IMG/VR virus record: IMGVR_UViG_3300038701_000752
Coordinates: 1-20,952 of that record
From: a virus
Length of the DNA: 20,952 nucleotides
Direction: 5' to 3' (one strand)
Shown: positions 1 to 11,513 of the stretch, in pieces
Numbering within the stretch: the stretch's first letter is position 1
How the letters are laid out: every line of letters begins with the position of its first letter
The notes under the pieces: model-generated
What the model was told of the DNA's origin: nothing
Seen by the model: the letters and a program-made list of their open reading frames with translations, nothing else
Databases searched by the model: none
Translations under genes and position numbers: made by a program

Positions 1-854
1 GGTATGTTACACCAAGAACGTTGGAAGTACATACCAGCCGCAGGCCGGACTTTCCAGTTGCCTTGAAGTAGGCGCTCCCGCTCGACCCGTGGAAGAGCGA
101 GAAGGTTAGCTTGGTAATCTGGGTTGGAGCGCATTAGCGCCTTGTTGTCGGTGAGCTTGGCGCTGATGAAAGTCAGCGACTTGGGCGGGATCGGTACTTC
201 GTCGCCATTCTCGTCAAGCATCTTTAGATGCGCCAACTCCTCCGGGTGATCTGCCCAGTGCAGCGTATCACCGCTTCGAACAAAGTAGCGAACGACGCCG
301 CTTCGCTCCGGGATCGCGTATCCAGTCTCCTGATCAATCCACCACGCAATCACACTGGCCACCCAACTGTCGGCGTCTGGATTGCAAGTGGCCCGCACAT
401 AAGGCCGAACCCCACACATGCTTCGGTTCCGCGACAGCATGTAGAAGAACTGACTTTCACTGAAGTGCGTAAGTTCGTCAAAACACAAAAGCGCAATCTG
501 CGCCCCTTGGTAATTGTGCTTCGTCTTTTCGTGCTCTAGATGGTTGAAACTTACCGTCGCGCCCGAGGGGAACTTCCAGTCTAGTACGTTCTCTCGCGGT
601 GTCGCCCCAACTGGATGATAGAGCGTTATGCTCTCGTCCCAGAGGCCGCCCTCGGTACGAATCTGTGTGGTATTGCGCCGGAAGAATACCGCGCCAAATC
701 CGGGGTTGTGGATGTGGCGCAGCGGTTCCATGAGTAGACCCCATGTTTTACCGCCGCCCGCGCTTCCGCCGTAAATGACGATGTCTGCAGAACTAGCGAG
801 AAAAGCTTCTTGAGGGCCCGCCTGCGGGCGAATGACTTTAATCGGCGCGGTCAT
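1..854 (-). CDS. terL: Terminase large subunit (N-terminal part, runs off the left edge)
   Basis: ATP-driven motor and nuclease that packages phage DNA into the procapsid. The visible 284 codons hold the ATPase domain. I see a Walker A GGSAGGGKT at residues 29-37, a Walker B ALLCFDE at 121-127 with the catalytic Glu, and a TCNPD coupling motif at 156-160, which is the usual TerL order and spacing. The nuclease domain lies beyond base 1. The start is the ATG at 854-852 inside the end of the small terminase gene. The 17-base overlap suggests translational coupling. The neighbouring small subunit fixes the assignment. Nothing in the visible part looks damaged. Confidence 0.93.
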   Translation of the reverse strand, partial: MTAPIKVIRPQAGPQEAFLASSADIVIYGGSAGGGKTWGLLMEPLRHIHNPGFGAVFFRRNTTQIRTEGGLWDESITLYHPVGATPRENVLDWKFPSGATVSFNHLEHEKTKHNYQGAQIALLCFDELTHFSESQFFYMLSRNRSMCGVRPYVRATCNPDADSWVASVIAWWIDQETGYAIPERSGVVRYFVRSGDTLHWADHPEELAHLKMLDENGDEVPIPPKSLTFISAKLTDNKALMRSNPDYQANLLALPRVERERLLQGNWKVRPAAGMYFQRSWCNI

Positions 855-1329
855 CGATTGGATCGTCTCGCCCGTTGCTCGGTAGTGCGTATGCGTATGT
901 TGTGACCTGCGTCACATTATCCGTAGTCACTTCCTGTTTATCGGTCAACCCTAGGTCGCGAGAAACGATATTCGAATTGAGCAAACCGGCAGCGGCGTTC
1001 TCAAACTTCTGAGTGTAGATGATCTGATCTACCAGTTCAGCGGCTTCTTCCCAACCCTCTCGCTTGCGGTAAGACGACAACCGGGACTCGGGAATCCCCA
1101 GATGGACGCAGAGGCCCTTCTTGGTGAACGGTCGAACCTTGGACTTCCAGTCCCTGATCACGGTCCCTTGGTATTGCCAAGACTCTTCCTCTTGCAGTGG
1201 GTGCGACTCGCACCATTCGAAGTATCCCGCACAGGCTTCAAGGAAATCCTCCGGCGTAAGGAACACCGTGTTCCGTTTACGCTTACTCAGGAGGTCCCGA
1301 TAATTGTACGTCATTCCTCGACATTTCAC
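838..1329 (-). CDS. terS: Terminase small subunit, P22 gp3-like
   Basis: Recognises the packaging site on phage DNA and hands it to TerL. The 163-residue protein resembles the DNA-packaging protein gp3 family of P22. It has the FLEACAGYFEWCESHPL segment near residues 29-45, a middle block with TKKGLCVHLGI followed by a Ser/Tyr-rich helix, and the KFENAAAGLLNSNIVSRDLGL block near 107-127. That family is associated with headful (pac) packaging, so headful packaging is my inference here. The start is uncertain: the first ATG (1329) has only a weak GAG upstream, and an ATG five codons later sits directly behind CGAGGA. The gene follows a NusG-like gene after a 113-base gap holding promoter candidates. 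Confidence 0.9.
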   Translation of the reverse strand: MKCRGMTYNYRDLLSKRKRNTVFLTPEDFLEACAGYFEWCESHPLQEEESWQYQGTVIRDWKSKVRPFTKKGLCVHLGIPESRLSSYRKREGWEEAAELVDQIIYTQKFENAAAGLLNSNIVSRDLGLTDKQEVTTDNVTQVTTYAYALPSNGRDDPIDDRAD

Positions 1330-1364
1330 TCGGATGAGTGCCCCACTTGTGAAGAGTTTTGCCA

Positions 1365-1393
1365 GTTAATCCCCGAGACACGGCGGCTGTCAA
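1365..1393 (-). promoter_or_regulatory. Weak sigma70-like promoter candidate before small terminase
   Basis: A perfect TTGACA at 1393-1388 is followed after 17 bases by a poor -10, ATTAAC, at 1370-1365. It points at the terminase genes. The -10 matches TATAAT at only about three of six bases, so this is an alternative to the promoter at 1410-1438. Confidence 0.3.
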
Positions 1394-1409
1394 CACTCGT
1401 TGAAACCAG

Positions 1410-1438
1410 CCTTTACACAACACACAGTAGGTTGACAA
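1410..1438 (-). promoter_or_regulatory. Possible member of the repeated phage promoter family (late genes)
   Basis: TTGTCA at 1438-1433, a 17-base spacer and TAAAGG at 1415-1410, followed by CTGGTTTCAACGAG. The geometry and the downstream GGTTTCA resemble the other sites of the family (for example 7270-7298), but this is the weakest of the eight. It would drive the terminase genes. Confidence 0.35.
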
Positions 1439-1442
1439 CCCC

Positions 1443-1958
1443 CTACGCGCATTTCCGCAGGAATTTCTTCGGGATTTCGACGATATTGGTCAACGCTGTA
1501 CCCTCCACCTTCAACCGCACCTTACCGCACGATCGTATTCGCTGCACCTCACCCCGGAGACCGCTAAAATACGTGTGAGCCGTAACCTCAACACAGTCAC
1601 CGATGTTCAGCCACAGTTCGTCATCGGCTGTCTCCTCTTCAACTTCACCCTCAAACTCCCGGTTCAGGATTTCCTGCATCGTAATCAGTTCGCTTAATTC
1701 CACGATGCGGGGGCGGGAGTTCTGGTCGTACATCTGGCGAATGCGGAAGTGTTCCGGAACGTCCCTGCGGAAGTCCGGCGCTCGGTGCAGCGGAACGAAC
1801 ACCAGACCGATCATGGCGGCGCTGAAGCTAACGACCGTCTTATGCGTTTTGGCGTCCACCCTGCGGCGACGTTCCACGGGGATGTAGACCCCGTGGGATT
1901 CTTTGTACAGCGTGAACAACTCGTAGGGTCGCCGACAGTTGAAGATCGTCAGTTTCAT
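1443..1958 (-). CDS. NusG/RfaH-like transcription elongation or antitermination factor
   Basis: The 171-residue protein has the two-part layout of NusG family proteins. Residues 1-95 look like an NGN domain: a YELF helix start, then GVYIPVERRRR, a basic KTHKTVV strand and the SAAMIGLVFVPL hydrophobic strand where NusG has its GYVFV core. Residues 115-165 form a KOW domain, with NIGDCVEVTAHTYFSGLRGE leading into a VRLKVEG strand. The acidic linker (about 101-114) separates them. Family members bind RNA polymerase and suppress pausing or termination. Its place directly before the terminase genes suggests a role in late transcription, which is inference. The start is ATG 1958, abutting the upstream stop (TGAATG), with GAGG six bases ahead. 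Confidence 0.78.
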   Translation of the reverse strand: MKLTIFNCRRPYELFTLYKESHGVYIPVERRRRVDAKTHKTVVSFSAAMIGLVFVPLHRAPDFRRDVPEHFRIRQMYDQNSRPRIVELSELITMQEILNREFEGEVEEETADDELWLNIGDCVEVTAHTYFSGLRGEVQRIRSCGKVRLKVEGTALTNIVEIPKKFLRKCA

Positions 1959-2345
1959 TCAGGGCCTCTTCGGTGGCGGGGGCGGCGGAGCTGCTGCGGC
2001 CCCCGTGGGTCGGGACGGGGGCGGTGGCGGGGCAACGGGTGCGGCGACAGGCTTGTCCCGACCACTGCGTCGTCTACGGCGCGCGCTGCGTCCGGTGCTT
2101 TCCTCCGACGCCTTGGGCGGCTTCTTGTACTCTGGTGGCAGGCGTCGGATGGTGTGTTCGATACGCACCTCGGCGTAGGCCAGAATCGGCTCCAGCGGCT
2201 CTTGAATGTAGTCCAGGGACAAGGGTCGCAACACAATCACCCACCCGTTCCACGGGACCAGCTCAGCGTTGACGTTCCACCTGCCACCGAAGCGGGCCTC
2301 GCCCGCCTCGATAGCTGCTTTCTTGTTTGCGTGGTAGTAGGTCAT
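1959..2345 (-). CDS. Hypothetical protein with Arg-rich and poly-Pro tail
   Basis: Not recognised. The 128-residue protein has an ordered N-terminal half (residues 1-75, with WNVNAELVPWNGWVIVLRPL and an ELEP/EVRIEH region). A strongly basic stretch (GRSARRRRRSGRD, about 85-97) and a low-complexity Pro/Ala tail with runs of six prolines follow. The tail is probably disordered; the basic patch could bind nucleic acid. It sits between two genes with direct TGAATG junctions on both sides, so it belongs to the same transcript as the NusG-like gene. Confidence 0.72.
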   Translation of the reverse strand: MTYYHANKKAAIEAGEARFGGRWNVNAELVPWNGWVIVLRPLSLDYIQEPLEPILAYAEVRIEHTIRRLPPEYKKPPKASEESTGRSARRRRRSGRDKPVAAPVAPPPPPSRPTGAAAAPPPPPPKRP

Positions 2346-2634: not shown

Positions 2635-2820
2635 GACCCCTTTTCGATTTCTTGTCAAATAATTTCTCCACCGCTGATAAGCGCTGTTGTTGATCTGCCC
2701 CTTAACCGCGTCACGCACCTGCAAAGGCATCTTGTCTGCTAGGTCCATCGCGTTGCGGTAGGGCGTGGCTTCGTCGGTATCCTTGAACCAGTCAGCGAAG
2801 TTTTTCAGGCCGCCCGTCAT
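2629..2820 (-). CDS. Small hypothetical protein coupled to the nuclease gene
   Basis: Not recognised. 63 residues, MTGGLKNFADWFKDTDEATP at the start, mostly helical and charged, ending RNRKGVL. The ATG at 2820 overlaps the upstream TGA (ATGA), which is why I prefer it over longer in-frame starts that would overlap the nuclease gene heavily. It has no clear ribosome binding site of its own, so translation probably depends on reinitiation. Its last codon and stop (TTG TGA) form the -35 of the next promoter. Confidence 0.7.
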   Translation of the reverse strand: MTGGLKNFADWFKDTDEATPYRNAMDLADKMPLQVRDAVKGQINNSAYQRWRNYLTRNRKGVL

Positions 2821-3236
2821 GTCATTTTCGCTTTCAAAAATGACTGGAACCATACCTTCGCGTTCGCCTCGTCCATGGTTGCAATCACGGGGGCCACGAA
2901 GCCGCCCCCGCTGGTTGGATAGTGGGCGGTGTACAGAACTGTCTGGAACTGCCACCGCTTGCGGTTCTGCCGGTACATGAGCAGCGGGTGTTTGCCGCTC
3001 TTGTTGGTCGCCGTGGTGATCTGCCGCCACCATGCCGGAATCGACAGGGCCTCAACACGCTTGACCTCTATCTCAAGTCCCGGCACTCCGTTGATATCAG
3101 CCCCTCCAGCGCGCACCTGTTCAAGATTGCGTTCAAGGTCGAGGCTGACACCAATCTCTGCCGCCCAACGGGTCAGGAGTGCAGCGGCTTCGCGCTCGCC
3201 GCTGGACCCTTTTGACTTTGGTGATTTGATAACCAT
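2817..3236 (-). CDS. PD-(D/E)XK nuclease, Holliday-junction-resolvase-like
   Basis: Predicted structure-specific DNA nuclease of 139 residues. I see the conserved signature in order: GEREAAALL with Glu14, RNLEQVRAGGADI with Asp47, GLEIEVKR with the Glu57-x-Lys59 pair, then PAWWRQ and LLMYRQNRKRW. This matches phage Holliday-junction-resolvase-like PD-(D/E)XK proteins, which resolve branched DNA before packaging. The start ATG 3236 has AGGGGAAG about eight bases upstream; a GTG 14 codons earlier lacks support and would overlap a 20-codon leader ORF. It ends with an ATGA overlap into the next gene. Confidence 0.85.
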   Translation of the reverse strand: MVIKSPKSKGSSGEREAAALLTRWAAEIGVSLDLERNLEQVRAGGADINGVPGLEIEVKRVEALSIPAWWRQITTATNKSGKHPLLMYRQNRKRWQFQTVLYTAHYPTSGGGFVAPVIATMDEANAKVWFQSFLKAKMT

Positions 3237-3298
3237 CAACGCTTCCCCTGTGGACCGTCGATGCCTGTGTCCCGGCACGATGCGATTTGAAGGTTCAT
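3236..3298 (-). CDS. 20-codon leader ORF coupled to the nuclease gene
   Basis: A tiny ORF, MNLQIASCRDTGIDGPQGKR, starts at ATG 3298 behind a near-perfect AGGAG and ends in TGATG, where its stop shares one base with the nuclease ATG. It is too short to call a functional protein from sequence. The strong ribosome binding site together with the stop-start overlap suggests it is translated and couples or regulates the nuclease. Confidence 0.45.
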   Translation of the reverse strand: MNLQIASCRDTGIDGPQGKR

Positions 3299-5181: not shown

Positions 5182-5307
5182 GGGTGTCGTGCTCCAGTTG
5201 CTGGTGCTTCCTGAAAGGGACGGGGGCCGCTTAGGTGTGACCCCCGCCAAGGTCCAACAGGGAAGTGCCCTACCCCTAGCACGGGGCAGGACAGGCTGTA
5301 AAGCCCC

Positions 5308-7977: not shown

Positions 7978-8461
7978 GAGCGATTCCACCGATTTTTCGC
8001 TTCCCGACCGATTTTCTCAGTTGGACCTCTGTGGCCCCCGTATGTTCGGGGTCTCCAACACATACCCTGAACTCAAAGAACATACCCGAGAGTCTGTGCG
8101 CCACCCGGAGAGGCGCGACTCTGGCCTCTCTACCTTCTCTGGTTGCTCTCGGGGTTATTCGGGGTGATCTTAGTTCCCTGACCGCCACCTCGTCCTTCGT
8201 CTTGACCTTTGGCCAGTGCTCCAGCCACAACGCCACAGAAGTCTCTGTTCCTATGACCGTCGCCTTGGCACCTTCGTGCACCAGTGCAACCCCACAGATC
8301 TTACCAACCTCGTCCGCCATAGGTCTGAACGGTCGACCACCAACGAACGAATTGATCACCCTGACAGGGTTCTCAGTCGGACCTAAAGGTTCGTGAAAGA
8401 ACGCCATATCCAGAGCGTCTACTTGATCCAACATCACAGATATTCCTGTGAAAACGTCCAT
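7952..8461 (-). CDS. Hypothetical protein
   Basis: Not recognised. 169 residues. The first 95 look like an ordinary soluble domain (DVFTGISVMLDQVDALDMAF at the start, later KICGVALVHEGAKATVIG). The C-terminal third is Arg-rich and lower in typical coding character (SPRITPRATREGREAR), so it may be a disordered tail or an extended frame. A start at ATG 8461 has AGGAG eight bases upstream. An antisense open frame at 8031-8396 has no ribosome binding site and is less likely. It is the first gene beyond the repeat-rich gap. Confidence 0.6.
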   Translation of the reverse strand: MDVFTGISVMLDQVDALDMAFFHEPLGPTENPVRVINSFVGGRPFRPMADEVGKICGVALVHEGAKATVIGTETSVALWLEHWPKVKTKDEVAVRELRSPRITPRATREGREARVAPLRVAHRLSGMFFEFRVCVGDPEHTGATEVQLRKSVGKRKIGGIALAASQTSG

Positions 8462-8507
8462 CTTAAAACTCCTATCACATCCGAGGTTAGATCTACCCAG
8501 TTTCTGC

Positions 8508-8540
8508 CCCCTTTTCTACCCCTTTTCTACCCACTTTTTA
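8508..8540 (+). repeat. Three tandem 11-base iteron-like units
   Basis: CCCCTTTTCTA (8508-8518), an exact copy (8519-8529) and a diverged third unit, CCCACTTTTTA (8530-8540). The period is about one helical turn, as in many protein-binding iterons. Confidence 0.7.
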
Positions 8541-8702
8541 TCCTTTAAAAACAATACTAATGAGGAGAAGTGGGTAAAAGGGTACAAGGGGGGTGTGGGG
8601 CTCCTTCGGAACTAGACGTTAAAACGGCGCGTTTGTCCGCCTACTACCCCCGCAAACCGCCACTTTCCCGACGTACCCCCTTTTTTGTGCCCCTTTCGGG
8701 GT

Positions 8703-8718
8703 TAACTCCTTGTTATTA
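8703..8718 (+). repeat. 16-base direct repeat, copy 1
   Basis: TAACTCCTTGTTATTA, identical to 8780-8795, 77 bases apart. The reverse complement contains AACAAGGAGTTA, but no ORF follows it closely. Confidence 0.75.
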
Positions 8719-8779
8719 AAGGAAAAGAAGTAGTCCATCGTGAACTCCGACCCTTGGTTCTGACCACCTAAAAACCCCG

Positions 8780-8795
8780 TAACTCCTTGTTATTA
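8780..8795 (+). repeat. 16-base direct repeat, copy 2
   Basis: Identical to 8703-8718. A short A/T-rich run (TTATTATTAGCATTAAAAGG) spans its end. Confidence 0.75.
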
Positions 8796-8830
8796 TTAGC
8801 ATTAAAAGGGTACAGGATTTCTACCCCCTT

Positions 8831-11347
8831 TTACGCCCCCTTTTGAAACCCGTCGCCTAGCATGAACAGCGTCGTTTTTACCTGCCCCGGTATAACAATG
8901 CCCCGCTGAGCAGCGAGTTCCGACGCTGTTACTGGTACAAGGTAAGACTGCAGAACCAGTTCCTGAACCGCCTTCCGAACGTGGTCCTCTGTCGTGCGGC
9001 CCTGATCCGTACCCTTGAAATCCTGGTCCCTACGGAGGCCACGGACTAGCACGACTTCCGGAATGATATCGCCGTGACCGTCCAGACATTTAGGACATTT
9101 TCGGTTGTGCCGTGCGGCGGGGGTCATTTGGGTGTACGCCTCAATGAACCTGATGACCTTAGCTGCTCTGACGCTTTCGCCGCCGCCTGCCTCACCTGTT
9201 AACAAGATGTCTGACACGCGTCCGTAGCTCTTGGCCGCTACGGTTTCGGCGTAGTCTAGATAGACGGGGCTGATTACCGGGTTCTCCGGGTTGTCCATGG
9301 CCGCCATAAGGGCCGCCAACCGGCTGACCTGCGCCTGCGCCCGGTTGAAAATATCGTTGGACGTCTTGTCCTTGTTGATGAGGTCGATGTAGTGGTCTTC
9401 CAGATCCTCCAGCCGATCCTGGAGCTCTGTAGCGCAGTGCACGTCGTGTACGGTGTCGCCGCCCATTGTGGCCGTGTGCCGGTAGACCTGCGCCACACGC
9501 GCCGCGAGCGCCTGCGGTACCGAGGCGTCGATGCCGCGCTTCGGTTTAAAGGCTGGTCCCTCGTACATGAAGTACAGGAACCTCTGCGCGAACCCGAGGG
9601 TCACCGCCGGAGTACCAAGGAACCGTTTCACCGGAGGAATTTGGGTGTCCAGCCCTACGGTGTACGCCGGACTGACCACCGCGTTTATCTTGTGCTCGTC
9701 CTTGGCGTACCCGACCGAACCTAGCACCCTGTTCCGACCGGACTTGTCCCAGTGCTTTGACATCTCGGCCCTGAGCCGTTCGCCGTTGCTGTCAGGCGCA
9801 GAAGCTGTCAGGTTGTTGAGCAGGGCGTCGGAGTCTTCCTTGTACGCCGCGCGGGTCTGGTAGTCGCCGCTGAACATCTTGCGCAAGCCCGGAGCCGAAG
9901 CCGCTACGTCGTGCCCGAAGATGTCGATCATTGCTGCCGGGTCCTGAGCCATCTTGAACGCCTCGGCGAGCAAGGCTTCGCGCCGACGTTGGCTTTCGCC
10001 CTTGCCGACGCCAGAGTCACCAGCGATGACCATGTACAGGTTGACACCGCTTCCGTCGATATTGTACCGCGCGCCAAGGATCCCCGCCGCGACATAGAAC
10101 GCTTGCGCAATGGCGAACTGACTAACCGGCCTGCGGCTGGTGGTGTAGATCCACTTCGCTACCTCACCAACGAGGCCGGGCGGCCAGCCGATGTCCCATT
10201 GAAGTTCGGGGTCGTCAATGGGCGCGACCTTGATTTCCTGAAGCGTTTCGGCGCTTTTGGCGAGGTCCTCGCGGACACCGGCTGGACCCGACTTGCTGCC
10301 GATGCGGTACAGACCGTTCCACAACTGGCTCCCGTGCTCGCTGGTGGCGGTGCCATACTTGGCTTCGTCAAGTTCCTTGAGGCATTGCTTGGCGTAATTG
10401 AACGCCGCGATTTCGTCGCCGCCGTGTTGCAGCGCAACGAACAGGTCAAACCCGTCGCCGTTCTTGCGCCCGAGCAGGTTCTCCACATACTCCGATGCAG
10501 TGACCCAACCCCGACCGTCGTCGTCAACCTTGGTTCCGTATGACTTGGTCGACTGTCCCGGATGGTGCCAGTCGTCGCCGTTGCGGGTCTCAAACCCGTA
10601 CATGGCGAGCAATTCAGCGGTCGGGTGTTTAACGGCGAACGCCCGACGGGGGCTTCGCTCTGTCTCGTTCCGCTCACCGCTGTAATCCGCCCGCTGAGTG
10701 TGCTCCAACCGCTCCAGAGCAGGTTCGTACATCCACGAGTTTTGGATGGCGATAGGCTGTCCGGGCTGGTGGTGGAACTGGTACTCTGGCCCCCGGTTGG
10801 GAAGGTAGCAGAGCTGACAGGGCCGGGAAGCCGACCAGTCAGGAACAAGCCCAGCCTGTTCCGCCGCTGCACAGATCACCTCCTTAACCGACTGTACCGC
10901 TTGCAGCGGGAAGGGTTCCACATCCCAGATGACCCGGTACTTGCGTTTGACCGTGCCCGCCTTGTCAACAATTCCTGTCTTGGGGCAGATGTCGTCCTCT
11001 GTTCTAACTTCGCCGTTGCTACGGGTCGTGTACAGAAGGAACTGACAACCCTGCGCCACCTGCTTTGCGAACGTGAGCACCTGCTCGAACGTGGGGTCGC
11101 CACGGTCGAAGTCAGCCCAGAGCGCCGTTGCCTTGGCGGGAATGTTGTCTCGGTACAGAGTCAGGAACGACCTACCGTCCGGACCTGTGAAGTCGTGGGG
11201 GATGACCCACCAATGATCCTTACCGTTGTGACACGGCGGCGCGTGCTGTTCGACCTGCGCCAGTTCAACGATCGCTTGGAATGTGGTCGTGTTGTACGCC
11301 CCTCGGTCTTCCCTGCGGGTGTCCGCGTAGCCCTTACCAACAATCAT
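8831..11347 (-). CDS. Primase-helicase-like replication protein (AEP-like plus DUF3987-like ATPase)
   Basis: 838 residues. The N-terminal part looks like an archaeo-eukaryotic-type primase domain: an acidic ALWADFDRG (DxD at 79-81), YTTRSNG (106-112), KYRVIWDVE (136-144) and an SRPCQLCYLPN block (174-184). The usual motif-II His (TTxSH) appears as Asn, so primase activity is uncertain. The second half resembles DUF3987-type phage helicases: WPPGLVGEVAKWIYTTSRRP (388-407) and a P-loop GDSGVGKGES (443-452). A KCPKC pair lies near the C-terminus. It would prime and unwind DNA at the fork. The start ATG 11347 has AGGAG about five bases upstream. It is the first long gene of the leftward arm and abuts the candidate origin. 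Confidence 0.78.
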   Translation of the reverse strand: MIVGKGYADTRREDRGAYNTTTFQAIVELAQVEQHAPPCHNGKDHWWVIPHDFTGPDGRSFLTLYRDNIPAKATALWADFDRGDPTFEQVLTFAKQVAQGCQFLLYTTRSNGEVRTEDDICPKTGIVDKAGTVKRKYRVIWDVEPFPLQAVQSVKEVICAAAEQAGLVPDWSASRPCQLCYLPNRGPEYQFHHQPGQPIAIQNSWMYEPALERLEHTQRADYSGERNETERSPRRAFAVKHPTAELLAMYGFETRNGDDWHHPGQSTKSYGTKVDDDGRGWVTASEYVENLLGRKNGDGFDLFVALQHGGDEIAAFNYAKQCLKELDEAKYGTATSEHGSQLWNGLYRIGSKSGPAGVREDLAKSAETLQEIKVAPIDDPELQWDIGWPPGLVGEVAKWIYTTSRRPVSQFAIAQAFYVAAGILGARYNIDGSGVNLYMVIAGDSGVGKGESQRRREALLAEAFKMAQDPAAMIDIFGHDVAASAPGLRKMFSGDYQTRAAYKEDSDALLNNLTASAPDSNGERLRAEMSKHWDKSGRNRVLGSVGYAKDEHKINAVVSPAYTVGLDTQIPPVKRFLGTPAVTLGFAQRFLYFMYEGPAFKPKRGIDASVPQALAARVAQVYRHTATMGGDTVHDVHCATELQDRLEDLEDHYIDLINKDKTSNDIFNRAQAQVSRLAALMAAMDNPENPVISPVYLDYAETVAAKSYGRVSDILLTGEAGGGESVRAAKVIRFIEAYTQMTPAARHNRKCPKCLDGHGDIIPEVVLVRGLRRDQDFKGTDQGRTTEDHVRKAVQELVLQSYLVPVTASELAAQRGIVIPGQVKTTLFMLGDGFQKGA

Positions 11348-11473: not shown

Positions 11474-11513
11474 GGTCCGGCAGGTCTACTCCACCTGTCG
11501 GACCATTTTATTT
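11474..11513 (+). terminator. Strong intrinsic terminator reading rightward
   Basis: Twelve-pair stem (GGTCCGGCAGGT with ACCTGTCGGACC, one G-U, 7-base loop) followed by ATTTTATTT on the plus strand. It has the full form of an intrinsic terminator in the plus direction, yet the nearest genes on both sides are on the minus strand. The right arm lies inside the 3' end of the HTH gene. In the minus direction it lacks a T tract. Confidence 0.55.

Follow-up and report, generated by a model that had tools for sequence, protein, structure and literature searches.

Few phages have had the control of their late genes worked out in detail, and in most of these it depends on Q, which is loaded at the late promoter, or on dedicated activators. 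Specialised paralogues of NusG are a further means of promoting the transcription of long operons. The closest parallel to the locus described here is LoaP of Bacillota, a NusG paralogue whose action requires an RNA hairpin in the leader, upstream of an intrinsic terminator (PMC12691694); the hairpin, of the UNCG type, is located in the dfn leader of the polyketide operon that LoaP acts on, and the terminator is NusA-dependent. RfaH of E. coli is recruited by the ops DNA and has a fold-switching, alpha-helical C-terminal domain, and the UpxY proteins are the NusG paralogues of capsule operons in Bacteroidetes. NusG paralogues encoded by phages are already known, most of them being held in PHROG 6386 ('transcription antiterminator'), and copies of rfaH-like genes on prophages and plasmids were noted earlier (PMC7593976).

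Here we describe a NusG-like gene from the 20,952-base IMG/VR record IMGVR_UViG_3300038701_000752 (the whole of which is called the window in the following), which is probably a fragment of a virus genome. Judging from sequence, predicted structure and gene order, the gene probably encodes a specialised phage NusG paralogue that would act as a processive antiterminator of the late (packaging, head and tail) operon, in the position of Q. The protein itself is a divergent addition to the phage NusG paralogues already known. What appears to be new is the pairing of phage NusG paralogues with leader RNAs at the border of the late operon, the RNA half of which was not found in the window itself. 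If NusG paralogues fill the position of Q in phages of alphaproteobacteria and of a cyanobacterium, many of them with a leader RNA of their own, many natural protein–RNA pairs would be available for testing. Such pairs address the question of how specialised NusG proteins choose their operons, so far answered mainly for RfaH and LoaP.

The NusG-like gene and its predicted product

A previous sequence-only reading had recognized an ORF at 1443-1958. The ORF does exist, but its strand had to be corrected to minus, as the plus-strand frame is interrupted by a stop codon. The features of the locus are as follows.

3..854, minus strand: terL (terminase large subunit), truncated by the contig end; PF03237, E 3.8e-37; phrog_979, E 2.2e-115
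838..1329, minus strand: terS (terminase small subunit); PF16677 (GP3_package), E 6.2e-20; phrog_606, E 7.6e-40
1330..1442, minus strand: gap of 113 nt from the NusG-like gene to terS, expected site of a recruitment signal
1443..1958, minus strand: NusG-like gene, 171 aa, ATG at 1958-1956
1446..1619, minus strand: predicted KOW beta-barrel, residues 114-171 (AlphaFold2; structural matches)
1641..1958, minus strand: predicted NGN domain, residues 1-106 (AlphaFold2, pLDDT 92.7; structural matches to the NGN of RfaH and NusG)
1959..2345, minus strand: preceding gene, function unassigned, abutting the NusG-like start

The start codon of the NusG-like gene abuts the stop codon of the preceding gene (TGAATG), with a GAGG upstream as the ribosome-binding site. 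terS, and then terL, follow directly downstream in the same direction, and the proposed placement of the gene directly before them was borne out by the Pfam and PHROG matches of both terminase genes on the same strand. The contig ends inside terL, and the late genes past terL are not on it. Upstream, again on the same strand, are replication and recombination genes, including those for a RusA-like resolvase (2817-3278) and a primase (8831-11347). Therefore, the NusG-like gene stands at the border between early and late genes.

The architecture inferred from the letters alone, an NGN-like half followed by a KOW half, was confirmed by comparing the AlphaFold2 model of the whole protein (pLDDT 83.8, pTM 0.75) with NusG. 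The best 27 structural matches of the NGN half were all NusG, RfaH or Spt5, the top one being RfaH (Z 8.3, 94 residues, rmsd 2.8), and the KOW half resembles the KOW domains of NusG and Spt5 (Z about 10). The succession of an NGN domain and a KOW beta-barrel, characteristic of the NusG/Spt5 superfamily, is thus found by profile and by predicted structure. Among viral proteins, the best structural match was A0A291AUS6 (222 aa, TM 0.74 by query length), which from its length, equal to that of the phi3LM21 protein, appears to be the phi3LM21 NusG-like protein. The window protein shares with RfaH the NGN fold and would, like it, be a specialised paralogue promoting a long operon. Its C-terminal half is a beta-barrel according to AlphaFold2, a predictor that may show one state only, and no recruitment site was found for it in the window.

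In NusG, the C-terminal domain makes contact with NusE/S10 and Rho through its conserved FGR segment. In the alignments, this segment is replaced by VEGTALTN in the KOW domain of the window protein, which is unlike a housekeeping NusG in this respect; the protein may therefore no longer touch NusE and Rho in the way that housekeeping NusG does.

Searches with general models gave little. Pfam yielded no NusG match in the window, and for the NusG-like protein only KOW2_Spt5 at E 0.051, below the cut-off; nor did the protein match PF06530, the Pfam model of Q, and it is unrelated to lambda Q and Q21 and to GafZ, the late antiterminators of phages or GTA with which it would share the proposed effect on late transcription and, for Q, also the position before the late genes. 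No PHROG model matched at E up to 1, the one for PHROG 6386 included, whereas PHROG models match the other 16 of the 17 aligned phage NusG-like proteins. The best match to a curated model was to the NCBIfam UpxY model NF033644 (E 3.6e-8, residues 17-167), which at 33.6 bits is far below the family cut-off of 100 bits and comes from an unspecific model, also matching the ordinary NusG in every control genome. Searches with the window protein as a single query sequence gave no match among viral contigs, phages, genomes or PDB sequences, and an alignment-based viral scan covering all 17 members found no stretch that was sufficiently conserved.

Membership was seen with a profile built from 14 other phage NusG-like proteins, taken from viral contigs and cultured phages, the window protein being left out. 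Searched against all ORFs of the fetched loci, it recovered the window ORF at E 6.7e-9, while the best non-member reached 0.31. A profile of 17 viral proteins, that of the window included, gave E 2e-31 with E. coli NusG and 3e-15 with RfaH. In the tree, the cellular NusGs fall into a single clade that contains no phage protein, support within the phage part is low, and the longest branch of the family is that of the window protein. The phage NusG-like family is delimited by two traits, a match to a profile made without the protein itself and a co-directional position ahead of the terminase genes. The window gene has both, and its product belongs to the phage-encoded NusG paralogues, though as a highly divergent one. 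The proteins of PHROG 6386 and PHROG 25909 (e.g. Sinorhizobium phi3LM21 p27 and Rhizobium RHph_N28_2 EVB88_001) are likewise phage-encoded, have an NGN domain and are located upstream of terminase genes, but the PHROG models do not detect the window protein because of its divergence. It also has a KOW part, whereas none is recognizable in the PHROG 25909-type members (e.g. those of N28_2 and L032). In these proteins (L098:1-687, L032:333-1073, L099:1-684), the NGN domain is present and the C-terminal part is without a recognizable KOW motif.

Gene order and leader RNAs in related phages

Twenty-one viral contigs were fetched by NusG similarity, regardless of their terminase. In 19 of them terL is downstream of the NusG-like gene on the same strand, and in none is it upstream or on the opposite strand; the other two have no terL within the flank examined. 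Several groups of terL are represented (window/N28, phi3LM21, Nostoc and phrog_3717 types). The same order of nusG and terL occurs in cultured phages, namely RHph_N28_2 and TM3_3_3 of Rhizobium, phi3LM21 of Sinorhizobium, Nsp-JY10 of Nostoc and ppBjS10J-1 of Bradyrhizobium, the terL of the last being unannotated in its record and named by comparison alone. In the two Rhizobium phages, terL is about 70% identical to that of the window, and the RNA element R1 described below is present as well.

When the comparison started from TerL, a NusG-like gene was present in 5 of 80 related loci, within the flanks examined (L009, L032, L048, L056 and L078), always upstream on the terL strand. Most relatives must therefore rely on something else: within the terminase group of the window, the NusG-like gene is a solution that can be exchanged for another and not a fixed component. 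The Pfam Q model PF06530 had no match in 47 related contigs, whether NusG-bearing or NusG-less.

Stretches of DNA downstream of the NusG-like genes are conserved between phages with strongly differing terminases or NusG proteins. They contain the following elements.

L098:698-799, L191:6605-6703 and L201:6557-6651, all plus strand: R1, an RNA element (GCGGAC-hairpin-GGRATACTCGCCGG) downstream of phage NusG-like genes; further IMG/VR contigs are L211-L284
L100:7011-7066 (plus), L101:7282-7337 (minus), L118:6602-6657 (plus), L148:6618-6672 (plus) and L206:6611-6668 (plus): R2, a nested hairpin followed by a AGTGCGAAAGCTATG-like tail
L193:6596-6700, L196:6596-6700, L195:6593-6701 and L199:2341-2455, all plus strand: third leader type, GATTTGGG ... 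AAATTC, past the stop codon of the NusG-like gene

R1 contains two covarying helices, with 96.8% of the cells paired and a score of 0.387, compared with 0.122 +/- 0.019 for shuffled data (none of 500 shuffles reached it). The R1 motif was used as the query in a blind scan of all IMG/VR viral contigs, and 74 contigs were recovered. A NusG-like ORF is present upstream on the same strand, mostly at a spacing of 33-69 nt, in 61 of the 65 contigs having at least 700 nt upstream; many of the 74 contigs are close relatives, 32 with an identical core, and the 61 cases are not independent events. terL, where matched, is always downstream of R1 on the same strand (23/23). The four contigs without a NusG-like ORF in the DNA examined are L264, L219, L247 and L274; the match in L264, within coding sequence, looks like a chance one. 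Run against 0.97 Mb of related loci, the R1 covariance model matched 14 times; apart from the match in L039, each of them follows a NusG-like gene on its own strand, although several of the 14, or near relatives of theirs, were part of the model itself. In L039, R1 (6-107, plus strand) is at the very start of the contig with terL downstream, which suggests that the NusG-like gene lies just outside the contig.

R2, which is distinct from R1, is common to five sequences, those of phi3LM21 and the Nostoc phage named above, two from prophages and one from a viral contig. It is located between the NusG-like gene and the late genes, an intrinsic terminator coming next in four of the five; with five sequences, its support from covariation is modest. 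The third type, compared by alignment, is probably akin to R1, and is followed by an intrinsic terminator in L195, L196 and L199. R1 and R2 are absent, according to the covariance models, beside the NusG-like genes of L009, L056 and L078, loci which have a TerL of the same group as the window and in which the NusG-like gene is likewise close to the packaging genes. The leader elements therefore mark sub-groups, and not the whole phage NusG-like family.

Intrinsic terminators are enriched both after NusG-like genes (5/35 against 1.8%, p 4e-4, in a strict scan; 19/35 against 21%, p 2e-5, in a looser one) and after R1 (10/57 against 4.4%, p 2e-4), the thresholds being our own choice and both scans after NusG genes being given. 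A strong terminator at either place is found in a minority of cases only.

Rfam 15 at the gathering threshold gave nothing except tRNAs in 11 relatives. In several relatives (L195:6741-6811, L199:2502-2572 and L191:6716-6788), tRNA genes directly follow the leader region and precede the late genes, and short blast matches found 176-231 nt past some NusG genes proved to be tRNA genes and were dropped. No publication on a phage NusG late antiterminator or on an R1-type RNA was found in a search that left many subscription journals outside, and a regular pairing of NusG and leader RNA at the late-operon border was found neither in the searchable papers nor in Rfam or annotations.

Proposed role in late transcription

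The sequence-only reading had suggested a search for an ops-like or hairpin element between 1330 and 1440, but none was found there with the RNA models and by folding. The best matches of the R1 and R2 models in the window (E 1.1 and 0.72) are both outside the gap, so that the locus does not fall into either sub-group, and the third leader type, tested by pattern alone, gave no match in the window. The 113-nt gap folds as shuffled sequence does, and contains no U-tract terminator. It holds the following structure.

1385..1411, minus strand: bulged 10-bp hairpin GGCTGGTTTCAACGAGTGTTGACAGCC, the sole candidate signal in the gap, not beyond chance (z-score of the region -0.02)

The loop of this hairpin is GAGU, in comparison with the UNCG of LoaP. 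Two other structures were set aside, an inverted repeat at 1871-1899 (11 pairs, minus-strand loop TCTACAT) within the NusG-like coding sequence, considered as a leader hairpin and dropped (z-score of the region -1.47), and a hairpin from the looser scan 199 nt past the stop of the gene, which lies inside terS. The window thus differs from many relatives, which carry an RNA element.

The reading of the gene product as a late antiterminator is preferred mainly because of its position, which is conserved before the packaging genes across different terminases. We infer that the window protein binds RNA polymerase, acts in antitermination and is recruited by a signal. Produced from the last gene before terS, the protein would bind through its NGN domain to the elongation complex of the host RNA polymerase close to where the late operon begins, and would stay bound. 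The polymerase could in this way pass pause sites and intrinsic or Rho-dependent stops and reach the late genes, the NusG-like protein taking the place that Q has in lambda. In many relatives, the structured RNA between nusG and the late genes would be the likely loading site, like the RNA hairpin of LoaP. As with LoaP, a NusG paralogue adjoins its putative target operon, and in the relatives an RNA hairpin lies between them, sometimes followed by a terminator; the RNA is another one, however, the operon is a phage late operon, binding of the RNA by the paralogue is putative, and no such element was found in the window.

The operon specificity originally proposed is well supported on comparative grounds: the conserved position and, in the relatives, the covarying RNA and the enrichment of terminators argue for it, but the gap in the window contains neither R1 or R2 nor a U-tract terminator. 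Also to be set against late antitermination are the longest branch of the family, the missing FGR segment and the presence of nusG in only 5 of the 80 TerL-related loci.

On a wider scale, phages might commonly possess late switches in which an upstream-encoded NusG paralogue, loaded by a dedicated leader RNA of at least two classes (R1 and R2), allows terminators to be read through into the packaging genes. Such switches would be similar to LoaP in working and to Q in position, and the phage of the window would be among them as a diverged case, its RNA being of another kind or lost. This generalization is a serious possibility, which we put forward tentatively.

Other explanations appear unlikely, the best of them being that the protein competes with host NusG, occupying its site on RNA polymerase without recruiting Rho, with a genome-wide relief of the Rho silencing of phage DNA and a disturbance of host transcription. 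The NGN fold is retained and the C-terminal FGR segment of NusG is not, as expected from such a competitor, and no specific cis-element was found in the window. However, a global factor needs neither a position before the packaging genes, which is conserved in many lineages, nor the dedicated RNA element present in relatives. Still less probable is a negative or timing regulator, i.e. a NusG-like pausing or termination factor or an autoregulator, which would keep the late genes off until the protein or replication accumulates. An attenuator would also fit the RNA element that in relatives directly follows the nusG-like gene, some copies ending in a terminator hairpin, but the known leader-specific NusG paralogues, RfaH and LoaP, have a positive effect on long operons (PMC7819879, PMC12691694), and the gene is just before the late operon and in the same direction. 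Least probable of all is a decayed or repurposed protein of NusG fold without a role in transcription, since, in spite of the very long branch and the absence of a close homologue from the viral contigs, phages and genomes searched, the ORF is intact with a ribosome-binding site, the two-domain model is confident and the location is that seen in relatives.

Other features of the window

All the Rfam matches in the window were below the gathering threshold; among them, one at 5212-5297 (minus strand) is to the SorX sRNA (33.1 bits, gathering 46.6, E 1.3e-4). The non-coding stretch at 8440-8840, after the primase gene, contains the direct repeats TAACTCCTTGTTATTA and TAAAAGGGTACA, each present twice, and an inverted repeat at 8525-8579, and is a possible origin or regulatory site. 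Finally, a strong terminator-like hairpin with 12 pairs and a T-rich tail is present at 11474-11504 (plus strand), between divergent sets of genes.
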